From Bacteroidota bacterium (GTDB lineage: Bacteria > Bacteroidota > Ignavibacteria > SZUA-365), in contig QKAF01000122.1 in NCBI GenBank assembly GCA_003246455.1, forward strand, positions 1 to 36,957: 36,957 nucleotides of DNA, read 5' to 3'. Made by a program: the position numbers and the translations under genes. Below, piece by piece: positions 22,904 through 30,241 of the stretch (positions are counted from its first letter, which is position 1; every line of letters starts with the position of its first letter). The notes beneath the pieces were generated by a model. It was not told where the DNA came from. It did not search any database and saw nothing but the letters and a program-made list of their open reading frames with translations.

Positions 22904-24253
22904 ATGAAGTTCAACACATTTCCGGGTGGGGTACATCCTCCCGAAGAAAAGGAACTCAGTGAACACTGTGCCTTTGAGCGCATGCCCGCACCGAGCATGG
23001 TCGTACTGCCCCTGTCGCAGCACCTCGGAAAGCAGGCAAATCCGCTGGTCGCAAAACGCGCCGCGGTCGTTCAGGGAGAGGTGATCGCCGAGGCCGACGG
23101 CTTTATTTCCGCGCCGGTGCACAGTCCCATCACCGGGACCGTGAAAAGCATCGGCCGCGAAAGCAACAGCAGCGGTTACATGAAAGAGGCTCTGGTCATC
23201 GTCCCGGCGGAAGCTGCGGAAGGTGAAGAAATACCGGATCCCGTCATGATGCCGCCGCTCAATCCCGATTCCGCGACGGTAGAGGAAATCCGCGCACGCG
23301 TCAAGGCCGCCGGTATCGTCGGCCAGGGCGGGGCCGCCTTCCCGACGTTCGTCAAACTGACTCCCCCCGAGGGAAAGACCATCGACACAGTCATTCTCAA
23401 CGGCTGCGAGTGCGAACCCTACCTGACGCGCGACGACCGGTTCATGCTCGAGCGTCCCGAGGCGATCGTCTCCGGACTGAAGCTGATCATGCGCGCGCTC
23501 GGCGTCAGCAAGGGCGTGATCGGCATCGAAAACAATAAACCGCAGGCCATCGCCTCGATGGAGAAAGCGGTCGCGACGCAGAACGGCCTCTCGGTCTGCG
23601 CGCTGCAGACCAAGTATCCGCAGGGTGCGGAGAAAATGCTGATCAAGGCCGTGAACGGACGGGAAGTCCCGCCGGGCCGGCTGCCGCTCGACGTCGGCGT
23701 GGTGATTCAGAACATCGGTACGGCCGTTGCGATCCATGACGCGGTCGCCAAGGGCGAACCCTCGATCACCGCGGCTGTGACCGTCACCGGACGCGGGATC
23801 CGCAATCCGAAAAATCTCATCATTCCGATCGGCACGCCGATATCGGATGTGATCGCCTTCTGTGGCGGACTGACGGACGACGCCGCAAAAGTCGTCGTCG
23901 GCGGCCCGATGATGGGCGTCGCCCAGCACGATCTGAACGCGCCGATCATGAAGGCCACTTCGGGCATCGTCGTCCTTACCCACGATGAGGTTCGCAAGCA
24001 GGAAGAAACCGCCTGCCTGCGCTGCGGAAAGTGCGTCGACGCGTGCCCCCTGCACCTGATGCCGACGCGTCTCGCCCGGCTGGCCCAGCTCAACATGGTG
24101 GAGGAGGCGGAACGTCTCAGCATCACCGTCTGCATGGAATGCGGAAGCTGCGCCTTTACCTGTCCGGCGAACATTCCGCTCGTGCAGTGGCTGCGGCTGG
24201 GGAAACAGCGCGTGATCCATCTTCAGCGAAGCCGCAAAAATACCGCGGCCTGA
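22904..24253 (+). CDS. rnfC: Rnf complex subunit C (NADH/ferredoxin-binding iron-sulfur subunit)
   Basis: A 449-residue peripheral subunit of the Rnf complex, which couples electron flow between ferredoxin and NAD to Na+ or H+ transport. The N-terminus 'MKFNTFPGGVHPPEEK' is typical. The nucleotide/FMN-binding glycine run is 'GQGGAAFPTFVKL', followed by 'NGCECEPYLTRDD'. Two [4Fe-4S] motifs lie near the C-terminus: 'CLRCGKCVDACP' and 'CMECGSCAFTCP'. It ends soon after them, without the long repetitive tail seen in some proteobacterial RnfC. It is the first gene of the operon; rnfD follows 63 bases later. Confidence 0.95.
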   Translation: MKFNTFPGGVHPPEEKELSEHCAFERMPAPSMVVLPLSQHLGKQANPLVAKRAAVVQGEVIAEADGFISAPVHSPITGTVKSIGRESNSSGYMKEALVIVPAEAAEGEEIPDPVMMPPLNPDSATVEEIRARVKAAGIVGQGGAAFPTFVKLTPPEGKTIDTVILNGCECEPYLTRDDRFMLERPEAIVSGLKLIMRALGVSKGVIGIENNKPQAIASMEKAVATQNGLSVCALQTKYPQGAEKMLIKAVNGREVPPGRLPLDVGVVIQNIGTAVAIHDAVAKGEPSITAAVTVTGRGIRNPKNLIIPIGTPISDVIAFCGGLTDDAAKVVVGGPMMGVAQHDLNAPIMKATSGIVVLTHDEVRKQEETACLRCGKCVDACPLHLMPTRLARLAQLNMVEEAERLSITVCMECGSCAFTCPANIPLVQWLRLGKQRVIHLQRSRKNTAA

Positions 24254-24316: not shown

Positions 24317-25291
24317 ATGTCAAGCGTAACAGTGACCGAGGCACCCACTGGGTCCGAGCTTCTGCTCTCGACCTCGCCTCACCTGCATTCGCGATGGACG
24401 ACAAAACAGATCATGTGGTTTGTCGTGCTCGCGCTGGTCCCTTGCGTGATTTCGGCCGTCGTGTACTTCGGATTCTATCAGCTCGTCGTCGTCGCCACCG
24501 CGGTGGTGTTCGCCGTCGGGACAGAGGCACTGATCCAGTCCCTCATGAAGAAACCCGTCACCGTCACGGACGGCAGCGCCGTCATCACCGGACTGCTGCT
24601 CGGACTGATCGTTCCGCCGAATTTTTCGCTCGTGTTTACCGCGCTCGGCTCGGTATTCTCCATCGCCATCGGCAAGATGGTGTTCGGCGGACTCGGTTTT
24701 AACATCTTCAATCCCGCCCTGGTCGGCCGTGCCTTTCTTCAGGCGGCCTTCCCCGTGGCGATCACGACCTGGACCATCCCGCATTTCGCGGTCGATGCGG
24801 TCTCGAAAGCAACGCCCCTCGCGGCGCTCAAATTCGATCATGTCGCGACCGGCCTCTCCCCGCTGTTCGTCGGCAATGTCGGAGGTTCCCTCGGTGAAAC
24901 CTCCGCGATCGCCGTCCTGCTCGGCGGAATATTCCTGCTCGTGACCGGCGTCGCCAACTGGCGCATCCCCGCGGCGATGATCACGGGGGTGATCGTGTTC
25001 GGCGGCGGTCTCTGGCTGCTCGATCCGGCCGCACCCGATCCCGTGTTCCACCTGTTTGCCGGCGGCTTTCTTTTCGCCGCGATGTTCATGGCGACCGACA
25101 TGGTCACTTCCCCGGTCACCGGGACGGGCATGTGGATTTACGGACTCGGCATCTCCCTCGTGCTGGTGCTGATCCGCGTGTACGGCGGACTGCCGGAAGG
25201 CGTCATGTATTCGATTCTCTTCATGAACGCCTTCGTGCCGCTGATCAACCGCTACACCCAGCCGCGGATTTTCGGGGAGGGACAGGCATGA
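24317..25291 (+). CDS. rnfD: Rnf complex subunit D (membrane flavoprotein)
   Basis: A 324-residue integral membrane protein of the NqrB/RnfD family with about nine to ten hydrophobic segments. Typical motifs are 'SPHLHSRWTTKQIMW' at the N-terminus, 'VTDGSAVITGLLLGLIVPP' and 'GGLGFNIFNPALVGRAFLQ'. The covalent FMN site should be Thr166 in 'VDAVSKATPLAALK'; the residue two before the Thr is Lys here, where I more often recall Ser or Gly. The protein carries electrons through the membrane next to RnfG. AGGA precedes the ATG. Its stop overlaps the rnfG start (ATGA). Confidence 0.95.
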   Translation: MSSVTVTEAPTGSELLLSTSPHLHSRWTTKQIMWFVVLALVPCVISAVVYFGFYQLVVVATAVVFAVGTEALIQSLMKKPVTVTDGSAVITGLLLGLIVPPNFSLVFTALGSVFSIAIGKMVFGGLGFNIFNPALVGRAFLQAAFPVAITTWTIPHFAVDAVSKATPLAALKFDHVATGLSPLFVGNVGGSLGETSAIAVLLGGIFLLVTGVANWRIPAAMITGVIVFGGGLWLLDPAAPDPVFHLFAGGFLFAAMFMATDMVTSPVTGTGMWIYGLGISLVLVLIRVYGGLPEGVMYSILFMNAFVPLINRYTQPRIFGEGQA

Positions 25292-25854
25292 AAACTATTG
25301 TCGCAATGCTGGTGACACTCAGCCTCATCGGCGTCGTTTCCGGCGGCGGACTCGCCATGCTCAGCAGCTGGGCCGATCCGCTGATCGCCGCGAATAAAAA
25401 GGCCGATACCGAACGCGCAATCTTTCTCGTGCAGCCCAGCGCAAAAAGCTATGAGAAGGTCGAGAAGGTCGCGTTCGAGCTCTACCGCGTCTTTGATGAA
25501 ACGAAAAATCCGCTCGGTTACGCGCTCCCGTGGGAGGGCAACGGCTTCCAGGGCAAGGTCCGCATGATGGTGGGCGTCAGCGCCGACCTCAACACCATCA
25601 CCGCCATCGAGGTTCTCGACCAGGTCGAAACGCCCGGTCTCGGAACCAAGGTCACGGAGGAACCCTTCCGCAAGCAGTTCCAGGGCCTGGTGGCCGTGCC
25701 CCAGGTGGACTGGGTCAAGGGCGTGCCGCCGACCAAGGAAAATGAAATCCAGACCATCACGGGCGCCACGATCTCCTCGAAGGCCATCGTCGGCATCGTC
25801 AACGACGGTCTGGCGCATCTGCGCAAGGACATGGCGCAGGGAGGTGCACAGTGA
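25288..25854 (+). CDS. rnfG: Rnf complex subunit G (covalent FMN-binding subunit)
   Basis: A 188-residue protein with one N-terminal membrane anchor (IVAMLVTLSLIGVVSGGGLAML) and a periplasmic-side FMN-binding domain. The flavinylation motif is 'TITGATISS' (Thr161), the target of ApbE, whose gene lies downstream in the same operon. Other family segments are 'GFQGKVRMMVGV', 'VLDQVETPGLG' and 'IVGIVNDGL'. The ATG at 25288 overlaps the rnfD stop by 4 bases and the 3' end overlaps the rnfE start (GTGA), so translation is coupled on both sides. Confidence 0.95.
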   Translation: MKTIVAMLVTLSLIGVVSGGGLAMLSSWADPLIAANKKADTERAIFLVQPSAKSYEKVEKVAFELYRVFDETKNPLGYALPWEGNGFQGKVRMMVGVSADLNTITAIEVLDQVETPGLGTKVTEEPFRKQFQGLVAVPQVDWVKGVPPTKENEIQTITGATISSKAIVGIVNDGLAHLRKDMAQGGAQ

Positions 25855-26531
25855 AAAAACAGGTTTCCCTTTCAAAAGAATACGCCAAAGGCCTGTGGGA
25901 TCAGAACCCCGTCTTCAAGCAGGTGCTCGGTATGTGTCCGACGCTTGCCGTGACGGTTTCGGCGATGAACGGCATCGCGATGGCGCTGGCCACGACGTTC
26001 GTGCTCGTGTTCTCCAGCTTCATCATTTCGCTCATCCGCAAGCTGATTCCCTCGCAGGTCCGCATCGCATCCTACATCGTGATCATCGCGACATTCGTGA
26101 CCATCGTCGACCTGGTGATGCGCGCGCAATTCCCGGACCTGAGCAAGGCGCTCGGTCCGTACATCCCCCTCATCGTCGTCAACTGCGTGATCCTCGGACG
26201 GCAGGAGGCGTTCGCCGCGAAAAACAACCCGCTGCGTTCGGTTCTCGACGCCCTCGGCATGGGGACGGGCTTCATGCTCGCGCTCGCGTCGCTCGGCGGC
26301 ATCCGTGAGATCATCGGCTCCCGCACGCTCCTGGGCATGCAGGTGCTGCCCGACGCGTTCGAGCCGTGGCTGGTCATGATTCTGCCCGCGGGTGCGTTTC
26401 TCACGCTGGGACTGATGATGGGATTTCTCAACAGCCTCGTCGAGCGCCGCAAGCGCCGCGATGAAGCAGCCGTACTCGCACAGCACATGCGGACGCCCGC
26501 GGCCGCGATGCTTGAAGGACAGGAGGGTTGA
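25851..26531 (+). CDS. rnfE: Rnf complex subunit E (membrane subunit)
   Basis: A 226-residue integral membrane protein of the RnfE/NqrD family with six predicted helices. The family core is 'NPVFKQVLGMCPTLAVT' near the N-terminus, 'LGPYIPLIVVNCVILGRQEAFA' and 'DALGMGTGFMLALASLGGIRE'. The two short Cys-containing segments (MCPTLAV and VNCVILG) are the half-membrane motifs that, with the matching pair in RnfA, hold an intramembrane iron-sulfur cluster. The start is a GTG at 25851 that overlaps the rnfG stop; GAGGTG is upstream. Confidence 0.94.
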   Translation: MKKQVSLSKEYAKGLWDQNPVFKQVLGMCPTLAVTVSAMNGIAMALATTFVLVFSSFIISLIRKLIPSQVRIASYIVIIATFVTIVDLVMRAQFPDLSKALGPYIPLIVVNCVILGRQEAFAAKNNPLRSVLDALGMGTGFMLALASLGGIREIIGSRTLLGMQVLPDAFEPWLVMILPAGAFLTLGLMMGFLNSLVERRKRRDEAAVLAQHMRTPAAAMLEGQEG

Positions 26532-26533
26532 CC

Positions 26534-27112
26534 ATGGAACTGATTCTCATTTTTCTCTCCGCCGCGCTGGTCAACAACTTCGTCCTGGCGTACTTCCTCG
26601 GCATCTGCCCGTTCATCGGCGTGTCCAACAAATTGTCGTCCGCCTTCCCGATGGGACTGGCGACGACCTTCGTCATGGTGCTGACGGCAATTGTGACCTG
26701 GCTTATTTACCATCTCATTCTTGTTCCGTATCATGTAGAATACCTCGAGTACGTTTCGTTCATTCTCGTGGTGGCCGCACTGGTGCAGTTCGTTGAAATG
26801 GTCATCAAGAAAGTCAGCCAGCCGCTCTATCGGGCCCTGGGGATTTTCCTTCCGCTGATCACCACCAACTGCGCCATTCTCGGACTCGCGCTGTTCATCG
26901 TGCTCAAGGATTACAGCTTTGTCGAAAGCCTGTTTTTCGGCGTGGGTGCGGGCACCGGCTTCACCCTGGCGATCAGCATCATGGCAGGCATCCGAGAGGA
27001 ACTCGATCTGGCGGACATTCCCAAATCGTTCCGCGGCGCGCCGATCACGCTCATCGTGGCGGGATTGCTAGCGCTCGCGTTCATGGGCTTCGCCGGCATG
27101 ATCACGGTGTAA
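26534..27112 (+). CDS. rnfA: Rnf complex subunit A (membrane subunit)
   Basis: A 192-residue integral membrane protein paired with RnfE. It carries the matching motifs 'VNNFVLAYFLGICPFIGVS' and 'PLITTNCAILGLALF', each with one Cys of the shared intramembrane cluster, and 'GVGAGTGFTLAISIMAGIREEL'. I start it at the ATG at 26534, which has AGGAGGG (26521-26527) six bases upstream; a TTG two codons earlier is in frame but less likely. The gene follows rnfE by two bases. Confidence 0.94.
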   Translation: MELILIFLSAALVNNFVLAYFLGICPFIGVSNKLSSAFPMGLATTFVMVLTAIVTWLIYHLILVPYHVEYLEYVSFILVVAALVQFVEMVIKKVSQPLYRALGIFLPLITTNCAILGLALFIVLKDYSFVESLFFGVGAGTGFTLAISIMAGIREELDLADIPKSFRGAPITLIVAGLLALAFMGFAGMITV

Positions 27113-27150: not shown

Positions 27151-27897
27151 ATGATTTCACGTCGTTCGTTTCTGAAACTGTCCGGCCTGGCGGTGGCCGC
27201 CGCCGGAGCCGGCTTCGGAACCGGAAGCATGCTGAGCCGCGGGGAAACGCGCCGCTTCGCCATGCACGGCTTTGTCCCTGACGACGATCGGGCAGTGAAC
27301 GATCTTCTCCGCCTGTTCGCGGCGGAACTTCCCTCGGGCGCGTCTGACCCGGTCATCACCGCGGATGCGCGCTGGAACAGCGTCGTGCGTGCGGCGCTTC
27401 GGCCTTCCACGCGCAGCGCCGGCGCACTGCAGGGCAGCGGCCGGGTGCACGTCCGCCTCGTCCGTCTCGGGAATACCCTCCCCGGTGACGTCCTTGTCTC
27501 CGACGACCGGAAGCGCATCTACAATCCGGAAGGCGATTTCAGCATGGCACTGCACGCATTGCGCTCGCGTCTGAAAGCGGGCGACGCGCGGTACATGATC
27601 AGCGCCGAGTACGTCGATGAAGCGCCGCTGGCCTCGATCTTTGCCGTGAACCGTGTCGTCGTCGTTGAAAACGACCGCGGAATCGTCGACCGGATAGCAC
27701 TCGATGGACGCAGCACCCGCCTCAATGTGCACGGGCCGCAGGGAAAGACCGGAATCACGGTTACCGCCGCGGGAGTGCATGTCCACAGCGCGAGCTGTCG
27801 TCACGCGTTGTGCCGCGGTGCGGGAATCGCCTCCCGTCCGGGCGATGTCATCGCATGCGCTCCCAACCGGGTGCTGCTGCGCGTGGAGAACGCCTGA
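27151..27897 (+). CDS. Tat-exported protein with NusG-II-like C-terminal domain, inside the rnf operon
   Basis: A 248-residue protein. AGGAG upstream of the ATG at 27151 and the Tat signal right after it fix the start. The signal is 'SRRSFLKLSG' (residues 3-12), an exact match to the twin-arginine consensus, followed by 'LAVAAAGAGFG'. Residues 31-160 are a region I do not recognise. Residues about 167-246 look like the NusG domain II found in small proteins beside Rnf-like operons in Firmicutes: 'VVVVENDRGIVDRIAL', 'GKTGITVTAAGVHV', a Cys pair in 'SASCRHALC' (Cys216, Cys221) and 'GDVIACAPNRVLLRV' (Cys236). Tat export suggests the protein folds, perhaps with a cofactor or metal, before leaving the cytoplasm. 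It may help assemble or regulate the outer-face parts of Rnf. The domain call is moderately sure; the role is unknown. Confidence 0.65.
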   Translation: MISRRSFLKLSGLAVAAAGAGFGTGSMLSRGETRRFAMHGFVPDDDRAVNDLLRLFAAELPSGASDPVITADARWNSVVRAALRPSTRSAGALQGSGRVHVRLVRLGNTLPGDVLVSDDRKRIYNPEGDFSMALHALRSRLKAGDARYMISAEYVDEAPLASIFAVNRVVVVENDRGIVDRIALDGRSTRLNVHGPQGKTGITVTAAGVHVHSASCRHALCRGAGIASRPGDVIACAPNRVLLRVENA

Positions 27898-27910: not shown

Positions 27911-28909
27911 ATGACTCGCCGTTCACCTGTTGCCATTACGATGTTCGTCCTCGCCCTCTTCAGCGTCGGCTTCTACCTGGCGCTGCAGTTTGCGAAAAAG
28001 GAGGAGGACACGGTCACGCGTACCCAGATCGCCCTGGGAACGCTGATCGAGGTGCAGGTGCGCGGACTCGAACGTGCCGATGCGGACGCCGCCATAAACG
28101 CGGCGTTCGCGGAGGTTCGGCGGGTGGATACGCTCTTCTCGACCTACAAGCCGGAGAGTCCCGTCTGGAAGCTGAACCACGGTGACGACACGCTTGTCGT
28201 ACTGCCGTCCGAGGTGTACGCGCTTCTGCTCTGGTGCGATACACTGTGGCAGCGGAGCGGCGGGGCATTCGACGTCGCCGTGCAGCCCCTGATCGAGGCG
28301 TGGGGTTTCGACGGAGAACACCCGGCTGTTCCTTCCGCTGATCGGCTCGCATCCGCGCTCGCACTGAGCGGGTGGCGGCATATCGTGCTCGCGGGCGACG
28401 GCCGCGTCCGGAAATCCCGCGGAGCGGGAGTGAACTTCGGCGCCATCGCCAAGGGCTATGCCGTGGATCGCGCCGTCGCCGTTCTTCGCGAACGCGGTGT
28501 CACCGAAGCCCTCGTGAATGCCGGCGGAGAAATCCGTGCGACGGGTGGAAGCTGGCAGGTGGGAATTCAGCATCCCCGGTCGGCGTCGGAACTGCTGGCG
28601 GTCATCGATCCGCAGGGGCGCTCCGTGGCGACGTCCGGCGATTACGAGCAGTTCTTCGAAGCGGACGGCAAGCGGTACCATCACATTTTTCATCCCGCGA
28701 CCGGCATGCCTGCCGCCGGCTGTCAGAGTGTCTCGGTCATCGCCGACGATGACATGGCCGCCGACGCGCTGGCCACGGCCGTCTTTGTCCTTGGACCCGA
28801 TGCCGGGTTGGAATTTTTACAGCAATATCCTGATATTGAAGCACTTATCGTCGACAGTCTGGGAGTGGCGCACAGCACGCCCGGCTTCGAACGATACCGA
28901 ACGAGGTAA
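27911..28909 (+). CDS. apbE: FAD:protein FMN transferase
   Basis: A 332-residue ApbE-family enzyme that uses FAD to attach FMN to threonines in proteins, here most likely RnfD and RnfG. The N-terminus is a signal anchor (PVAITMFVLALFSVGFYLAL) without a good lipobox, so the enzyme would sit on the outer face of the inner membrane, where its targets are. Family motifs are 'LFSTYKPESPVWKLN', 'GGAFDVAVQPLIEAWGF', 'VNFGAIAKGYAVD', 'ALVNAGGEIRATG', 'HHIFHPATG' and 'ADALATAVFVLG'. I more often recall Asp-Pro than His-Pro in the 'HIxxPxTG' motif. The start at 27911 is 13 bases after the preceding stop. Confidence 0.93.
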   Translation: MTRRSPVAITMFVLALFSVGFYLALQFAKKEEDTVTRTQIALGTLIEVQVRGLERADADAAINAAFAEVRRVDTLFSTYKPESPVWKLNHGDDTLVVLPSEVYALLLWCDTLWQRSGGAFDVAVQPLIEAWGFDGEHPAVPSADRLASALALSGWRHIVLAGDGRVRKSRGAGVNFGAIAKGYAVDRAVAVLRERGVTEALVNAGGEIRATGGSWQVGIQHPRSASELLAVIDPQGRSVATSGDYEQFFEADGKRYHHIFHPATGMPAAGCQSVSVIADDDMAADALATAVFVLGPDAGLEFLQQYPDIEALIVDSLGVAHSTPGFERYRTR

Positions 28910-28915
28910 GGAATC

Positions 28916-29782
28916 ATGGATCTGAATATTCTGATTGCGATCGCCACTATGGGTGGCCTTGGTTTTATCTTCGCCGGCGCGCTCGCGATCGCCGACAAGA
29001 AACTCCGCGTGGAGGAGAATCCGCTCATCGGCCAGGTGAACGACGTGCTGCCCGGCGCCAATTGCGGCGCGTGCGGGAAAGCGGGCTGCTATGATTTCGC
29101 GGTCAATGTCGTCGAGGGCACCATGGCGCCGAACGGCTGCCCCGTCGGCGGTCAGGAAGTGGCCAACGACGTCGCCGCGCTGCTCGGAATCGAGGCGGGC
29201 GAGGCGGTGAAAATCGTCGCGCGCGTGCTCTGCCGTGGCGGCAACATCGAAGCCGCCCGGAAACTGGTCGAGTATCGCGGACCGCAGAGCTGCGCGACGA
29301 TGGACCTGGTGAGCGGGGGATCAAAGCAGTGCCAGTACGGGTGCATGGGCGGCGGCGACTGTGTCGACGTCTGCACATTCAACGCGATTCACCTGAACGA
29401 AAACGGCCTCCCGGTTGTGATCGACGAACTCTGCACCGGTTGCGGCATGTGCGTGAAAGCCTGTCCGCGAAGCATCATCGAACTCCATCCCGCCGACCGT
29501 GAAGTCTTCGTTTTCTGCAAGAGCCACGACGATCCGAAAACCTCGAAGGACGTCTGCGAGGTCGCCTGCAGCGGCTGCGGCATCTGCGCCCGCAAATCCG
29601 ACGGCGGCGTCATCATCGAAAACGGTCTCGCCGTCATCCAGTGGGACAATTTCGATCCCGACAAGATTCCCTTCGACAAGTGCAAGTCCAGCGCCATCTG
29701 TTTCCTGCGCGACGGATTTGCAGAACACCAGGCGGAAGTCGCCGCGGCAGCGGCGGAAATGTCTCCGGAACAGAGCAACTGA
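28916..29782 (+). CDS. rnfB: Rnf complex subunit B (electron-input ferredoxin subunit)
   Basis: A 288-residue iron-sulfur subunit with an N-terminal membrane anchor (ILIAIATMGGLGFIFAGAL). The Fe-S domain motif follows: 'GANCGACGKAGCYDFA...GCPVGG'. Then come two ferredoxin-type clusters ('CQYGCMGGGDCVDVC' and 'CTGCGMCVKACP') and a further Cys-rich C-terminal part ('CEVACSGCGIC', 'DKCKSS') as in the long RnfB of anaerobes. It receives electrons from reduced ferredoxin, or passes them to it in the reverse direction. AAGGA precedes the ATG. Here rnfB is the last of the core genes, separated from rnfA by the Tat/NusG-II gene and apbE. Confidence 0.95.
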   Translation: MDLNILIAIATMGGLGFIFAGALAIADKKLRVEENPLIGQVNDVLPGANCGACGKAGCYDFAVNVVEGTMAPNGCPVGGQEVANDVAALLGIEAGEAVKIVARVLCRGGNIEAARKLVEYRGPQSCATMDLVSGGSKQCQYGCMGGGDCVDVCTFNAIHLNENGLPVVIDELCTGCGMCVKACPRSIIELHPADREVFVFCKSHDDPKTSKDVCEVACSGCGICARKSDGGVIIENGLAVIQWDNFDPDKIPFDKCKSSAICFLRDGFAEHQAEVAAAAAEMSPEQSN

Positions 29783-29797
29783 CGGAAAGGAAACCGC

Positions 29798-30241
29798 ATG
29801 CGCGGTGAGGATATTTACGAAGAAGGGATCGTCGTTTCCGCGGAAGGCGGCCGCGCCACCGTGGCCGTCGCGATGGGCGACGCGTGCGAGGAGTGCACGG
29901 CGAAAGTGTTCTGCAGCGCCGGGGAGAAGAAGGAAAACACGGTCGAAGCCCGTGATACGCTGGGGGTGCACCCCGGCGATCATGTCCGGATCGTGGTGCA
30001 CGGCGAGGACATGTTCAAGGCGGCGTTCCTCCTGTACGGCATTCCGCTGCTTCTTCTGCTCGCGGGCATTCTCGTCGGGACCTACGTGTTCGATCCCGGA
30101 ATGATGCCGACGGAACTGTGGTCATTCATCCTCGGCATAGGACTGGCCGGCATCTACTACCTGCTCTTCTTTCTGAACGGGGCGGATGCCCGGGGCGCGG
30201 GGATGATGCCGGATATCATTCTCGTTCAGGGGAGGGATTAA
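29798..30241 (+). CDS. rseC: SoxR-reducing/RseC-family membrane protein
   Basis: A 147-residue RseC-like protein. The N-terminal cytosolic domain starts 'EEGIVVSAEGGRATVAV' and holds three cysteines (Cys30, Cys33, Cys39 in 'ACEECTAKVFC') that could bind a cluster or metal. 'LGVHPGDHVRIVV' leads into two membrane helices (about residues 74-97 and 107-127). RseC proteins accompany Rnf/Rsx systems; in Escherichia coli RseC helps the Rsx complex keep SoxR reduced. AAGGAAA precedes the start at 29798, which is 15 bases after the rnfB stop. It fits an accessory Rnf factor; the precise role here is inferred. Confidence 0.82.
   Translation: MRGEDIYEEGIVVSAEGGRATVAVAMGDACEECTAKVFCSAGEKKENTVEARDTLGVHPGDHVRIVVHGEDMFKAAFLLYGIPLLLLLAGILVGTYVFDPGMMPTELWSFILGIGLAGIYYLLFFLNGADARGAGMMPDIILVQGRD

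Follow-up and report, generated by a model that had tools for sequence, protein, structure and literature searches.

EetA, from the Gram-positive flavin-based electron-transfer loci of Listeria, Enterococcus and Lactiplantibacillus, which are among the closest described systems, is a protein of about 140 amino acids with a plain membrane anchor that is encoded near EetB, Ndh2 and PplA. The eetA-annotated gene of Listeria reached 108 bits for NusG_II in a locus with pplA, an FAD-dependent oxidoreductase, eetB and apbE, and in E. raffinosus and Treponema saccharophilum NusG_II adjoins an EetB relative and ApbE. EetB is the FAD-binding part of an FAD exporter (PMC9973259). The literature is divided on the role of EetA: a clean eetA deletion in L. 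monocytogenes had no phenotype and did not alter electron transfer (PMC9973259), L. plantarum mutated in both eetA and eetB lost flavin-dependent electron transfer, which neither gene alone restored (PMC9888254), and EetA-defective E. faecalis showed about 10% ferric reductase, the role of EetA being called unknown (PMC9864754).

Solved NusG_II structures include the single-domain proteins Lin0431 (3ld7/2kpp), EF3258 (4obi, E. faecalis) and RUMGNA_02503 (4esn), which have no Tat signal, and domain II of Aquifex aeolicus NusG, which is inserted in a cytoplasmic transcription factor. The ApbE/DUF3570/DUF4266 system, in which DUF3570 is a proven ApbE substrate, comes from a flavinylation survey whose main text does not mention a NusG_II protein (PMC8238504); NusG is likewise not mentioned in the main text of the flavinylation papers searched. 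Short relatives of the protein studied here (X) sit between DUF3570 and apbE of this system.

Operon structure and sequence of X

The window (36,957 nucleotides of a contig from a Bacteroidota bacterium) carries a locus in the order rnfC-D-G-E-A-X-apbE-rnfB-rseC, with the neighbours of X verified by Pfam. The features are as follows:

22904..24253, + strand: rnfC (Pfam)
24317..25291, + strand: rnfD, with the motif SKAT, probable second ApbE substrate (Pfam, motif)
25288..25854, + strand: rnfG, FMN_bind, with the flavinylation motif TGAT, probable ApbE substrate (Pfam, motif)
25851..26531, + strand: rnfE (Pfam)
26534..27112, + strand: rnfA (Pfam)
27151..27897, + strand: X, predicted Tat-exported protein of 248 aa with N-terminal module and NusG_II domain (open reading frame, profile search)
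27151..27240, + strand: twin-arginine signal SRRSFLK plus hydrophobic stretch, X residues 1–30 (profiles, conservation)
27250..27630, + strand: N-terminal module, X residues ~34–160, about 125 residues (AlphaFold2 prediction, conservation)
27649..27894, + strand: NusG_II domain, X residues 167–248, with Cys216, Cys221 and Cys236 (Pfam, fold, conservation)
27911..28909, + strand: apbE, FAD:protein FMN transferase (PF02424, 286.6 bits)
28916..29782, + strand: rnfB (Pfam)
29798..30241, + strand: rseC-like gene (Pfam), found after rnfB in most rnf loci seen

The frame of X is open from 27151 to 27897, its product starts with MISRRSFLKLSG, AGGAG lies just 5' of the ATG, and apbE starts 13 nt after the stop. 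X is a real gene, since homologues at 19–83% identity retain the complete architecture. Terminators and promoters in the rnf-X operon were not clearly above shuffled sequence. The TGAT of RnfG fits [ST]GA[ST], the motif modified by ApbE, and SKAT is the usual RnfD variant of this motif. The ApbE of the window has an N-terminal transmembrane anchor and is not a lipoprotein. The rseC-like gene after rnfB brings the locus close to the SoxR-reducing system of E. coli, a pathway that includes both RseC and ApbE.

The twin-arginine signal named in the initial annotation was confirmed by TIGR01409 above the NCBIfam cut-off (22.6 vs. 16.7), with the Pfam profile 0.6 bits short of its own (22.1 vs. 22.7); a clear cleavage site was not found in residues 1–30. 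Conservation was determined on 34 Rnf/orphan-type homologues, 37% identical on average between pairs, all of which keep R4, F7 and K9 of the signal, and 32/34 keep R5 and hence both arginines. By motif and signal profile, X is a candidate Tat substrate. The other invariant positions are G21, P43, D113, R138, G198, C216, C221, C236 and P238, and the three cysteine positions first read from the window are correct and invariant (34/34). The extra N-terminal module, described as unrecognised at the outset, indeed had no match in Pfam, NCBIfam or PDB over residues ~34–160; its predicted secondary structure is b-a-b-a-b-b-a-b and includes the invariant Pro43, Asp113 and Arg138. X itself was rejected as an ApbE substrate because its own flavinylation motif (SGAS at residue 62) is not conserved, being absent from every other Rnf-type homologue.

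The proposed C-terminal NusG_II domain was borne out by PF07009 on residues 167–247 (49.5 bits vs. a cut-off of 29.6, E-value 5.5e-13). Only NusG_II and TAT were matched in Pfam at E-values up to 10, with neither NGN nor KOW; X thus carries no other NusG domain, unlike Aquifex NusG, and by its domain content would not qualify as a NusG transcription factor. Like EetA, X has NusG_II, is extracytosolic (by prediction in the case of X) and is encoded near ApbE (FmnB) and a flavinylated protein, and the three cysteines of X are also present in the EetA of Listeria and E. raffinosus. It differs in its Tat signal and the module of ~125 residues. PF07456 (EetB) was not found in the genome of the window, where apbE is present. 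X is therefore not an EetA in the strict sense, having no eetB in the genome and not being the short single-domain form, and is best described as a putative Tat-exported EetA relative.

Predicted fold of the two modules

The fold of X was predicted with AlphaFold2 from 12 homologues. The C-terminal domain is predicted to have the NusG_II fold: it aligned with Aquifex aeolicus NusG domain II (1npp, 1m1g, 1m1h) at Z 15 and rmsd 1.2 over 82 residues, and with 4esn (Z 13.8), 3ld7 (13.6) and 4obi (13.0) at rmsd 1.5–1.8 Å over 78–83 residues, whereas the nearest unrelated fold reached Z 5.6. Foldseek E-values against solved NusG_II domains were 3.5e-6 to 3e-4. The C-terminal assignment made initially from strand pattern and cysteines is thus supported by both profile and predicted fold (Z 13–15 vs. 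solved domains). All three cysteines are present in X, whereas Lin0431 is without the first and second and EF3258 without the second.

The N-terminal module modelled alone gave a pLDDT of 82.8 and a pTM of 0.78. Its best scores against the PDB (Foldseek E-value 0.11, VIA Z 3.5) lay below those of chance arrangements, so that no fold family was named; the missing PDB match is no proof of a new fold, and the ferredoxin-like look of the model is only an impression from strand order. A PDB sequence search with the single X sequence gave no match, and the 12-row X profile found NusG_II entries and no match for the N-terminal module.

Census of relatives and genomic settings

Few genomes of the phylum carry NusG_II (14 of 395); in the class of the window genome it is commoner (61 of 391). 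Neighbours were typed at all 73 NusG_II loci of this class and at two further loci outside it, in another class. The 61 loci of apbE-linked type comprise 34 of the Rnf/orphan type, 23 of the short type and four of the EetB type, with 14 X2 paralogues left out. In 60 of these 61 loci the next gene downstream, in the same orientation, is apbE. The 60 loci fall into four settings: 29 lie with rnf, 22 with DUF3570 (and a further one truncated by a contig end), four with EetB, and four are X-apbE pairs without rnf. The link to flavinylation proposed in the initial annotation is likely. Three cysteines in the pattern C-x4-C-x(11-17)-C-x-P were present in all four groups of the lineage (73/73 readable related proteins).

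Among the 34 Rnf/orphan-type loci, 30 adjoin rnf genes and four do not, with apbE directly 3' in 33; the position between rnfA and apbE reported for the window is constant inside rnf operons. The exception, G572, has the order rnfA-X-rnfB and carries its apbE in a porin-FMN_bind operon elsewhere. The short type reads DUF3570-X-apbE in 22 of 23 loci, the remaining one being cut by a contig end, and DUF4266 accompanies this arrangement in one genome (G077). The EetB type reads EetB-NusG_II-apbE; in G035, ABC ATPase genes and a gene for a CbiQ-type ECF-T come next, in what is an operon for FAD export and transfer with no substrate gene. By hhalign, the N-terminal modules of the DUF3570 type and of X2 are clearly related (98.7%), and those of the Rnf type and the DUF3570 type may be (31% probability, E-value 5e-4 for one pair).

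One rnf-less locus (G224) reads porin-FMN_bind(SGAT)-171 aa protein-X-apbE. An operon of a Porin_O_P-like gene, an exported FMN_bind protein (SGAT) and a membrane protein of ~170 aa, sometimes followed by X-apbE or apbE, was found to be conserved and looks like a separate envelope flavin-based electron-transfer system. Its loci are:

L124, 142-3231
L145, 1707-5010
L146, 1539-3717
G000:C56 of the window genome, near 951 (L127)

ApbE as the constant partner

rnfC is present in 21 of the 100 nearest genomes (in G009 cut by a contig end), of which 14 have X and seven are without NusG_II; the assemblies are mostly metagenome bins with neighbours cut at contig ends, so that the absence of a gene from one bin is weak evidence. 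Three of the rnf genomes without NusG_II (G067, G074, G085) have an unrelated ApbE. In two others (G032, G041), apbE lies between rnfA and rnfB and NusG_II is absent from the genome. Five genomes (G213, G682, G224, G670, G101) carry X-apbE although the search for RnfC and/or RnfD gave no match. X is consequently not distributed as an Rnf core subunit, which should accompany rnf in every genome and occur in no other. The three apbE-linked types of NusG_II occurred in 16 of 37 genomes with ApbE vs. 0 of 63 others (Fisher p 1e-8, ignoring kinship).

In a tree of 75 ApbE proteins, the partners of Rnf/orphan-, DUF3570- and EetB-type NusG_II proteins fell into separate groups (support 100/99 for the DUF3570-type and 100/100 for the EetB-type group). 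The only X-free members of the Rnf/orphan-type group were the ApbEs of G032 and G041, both lipoproteins, and the ApbE of G572, which is X-free although its genome keeps X at rnf. The two X-free rnf operons with lipoprotein apbE are:

L062, 5346-6305
L063, 1274-2239

Where the start is readable, ApbEs of the Rnf/orphan type carry a plain transmembrane anchor, whereas the X-free rnf ApbEs are lipoproteins, a contrast that represents one event and is therefore only a hint. Twin-arginine-like signals were seen on several X-free ApbEs of the class (L135-L140).

Taken together, the apbE adjacency in 60 of 61 loci, the rnf genomes without X and the clustering of ApbE by setting identify ApbE, not Rnf, as the constant partner, and the genomic tie of X to apbE is independent of the substrate. 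The proposal that X is a dedicated partner of Rnf accordingly did not hold. Homologues in genomes without rnf, named at the outset as the finding that would speak against it, were partly encountered, namely as X-apbE in the five genomes above and as DUF3570-X-apbE.

NusG_II domains away from apbE

The X2 type (14 loci) has the Tat signal, the N-terminal module, NusG_II and the three cysteines and never adjoins apbE. In five genomes with X2 only, neither ApbE nor DUF3570 was found, and an FMN_bind protein was not found in the three tested. In several genomes X2 follows a protein of ~450 aa ending in F-C-[LI]-T-C. Loci of X2 are:

G000:C111:96153-96581 (L068), in the window genome
L069, L070, L071, L072, L075

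NusG_II also occurs away from apbE in Fusobacteria (Ilyobacter, Haliovirga), as the Listeria lin0431 type, and on Enterococcus and Levilactobacillus plasmids. The intact NusG_II genes read outside flavinylation loci have lost two (the first two) or all three cysteines. Plasmid copies of Enterococcus, Levilactobacillus and Lactococcus (L155, L156, L157, L160) lie near lgt, DUF2933, peptidase or multicopper oxidase genes, and the intact ones are without the first two cysteines. The cysteine triad was considered as a clean marker of flavinylation and rejected, being spoiled by X2, EF3258 (second cysteine missing) and a degenerate Lactococcus copy.

Proposed role and alternatives

We give even chances to X being an exported accessory protein for the ApbE-dependent flavinylation of RnfG and RnfD. 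The analysis shows the architecture, the C-domain fold (prediction vs. solved structures), the gene order and the clustering of partner ApbEs by setting, whereas actual export, contact with ApbE and an effect on flavinylation are inferred. X would fold in the cytoplasm and be exported via Tat, with its N-terminus probably keeping the protein anchored. At the outer face, X and the membrane-anchored ApbE would attach FMN from FAD to RnfG (TGAT) and RnfD (SKAT), and in relatives the pair would act on DUF3570 or on porin-linked FMN_bind proteins. Most likely X would dock ApbE onto its membrane-bound substrate or present the substrate to it, the N-terminal module being the lineage-specific part and NusG_II with its three cysteines the core. 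Since relatives of X track ApbE through four electron-transfer settings, X probably assists flavin attachment and does not belong to Rnf as a fixed component. Against this stand G572, with X at rnf and apbE elsewhere, the unaltered electron transfer of the Listeria eetA deletion, the NusG_II genes of other bacteria that lie apart from apbE, and above all X2, the main weakness of the reading; in addition, G032 and G041 have rnf-apbE without X, and X is thus dispensable for Rnf-linked ApbE.

Any protein of a flavin system would adjoin apbE, so gene order alone cannot separate a helper from a redox partner. That X is such a partner, with the three NusG_II cysteines holding a dithiol or a metal/Fe-S centre and electrons passing between RnfG, DUF3570 or FMN_bind and other envelope proteins, ranks next and is in our view rather unlikely. 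Insertion of a cofactor in the cytoplasm would be in keeping with Tat export, the cysteine pattern holds throughout the 73 readable proteins, the first two cysteines are gone from several intact NusG_II genes that lie outside flavinylation loci, and a working model for L. plantarum places EetA in the electron path (PMC9888254). However, the G035 gene accompanies FAD export and ApbE only, the link between cysteines and context is not clean (EF3258 lacks the second, and X2 keeps all three without ApbE), and the cysteines could merely form a disulfide.

The first reading, in which X serves the structure or assembly of the Rnf complex, we consider improbable: in 29 rnf operons X is flanked by rnfA and apbE, and G572 keeps it between rnfA and rnfB without apbE, but X-apbE also occurs in the genomes that yielded no RnfC and/or no RnfD, relatives are part of DUF3570 and EetB operons, and seven rnf genomes are without X. 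Least probable, and by our estimate very much so, is that X binds FAD in the cytoplasm and is delivered by Tat to ApbE outside, replacing the ECF exporter EetB; PF07456, the FAD exporter family covered by the search, was found in only one of the 100 sampled genomes (G035), whose NusG_II protein is short and without Tat signal or N-terminal module, and the forms with both occur in sampled genomes without EetB, but this correlation is confounded by kinship, a PDB structure search found no known FAD-binding fold in the N-terminal module, and one FAD per exported protein would be costly.

The initial annotation also regarded X as the best candidate in the window for an undescribed component. NusG_II beside ApbE and EetB in Gram-positives is already annotated as EetA, and the domain is therefore not such a component; the Tat-exported, N-extended form and the association with Rnf and DUF3570 appear undescribed in the literature searched. 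EetA/NusG_II proteins are present in many flavin-based electron-transfer loci, and the pattern found here points to ApbE and flavin attachment, the lineage offering one protein with the same partner across different substrates. If the accessory role is true, a helper would be added to a modification now treated as the work of one enzyme, including for the Rnf ion pump.
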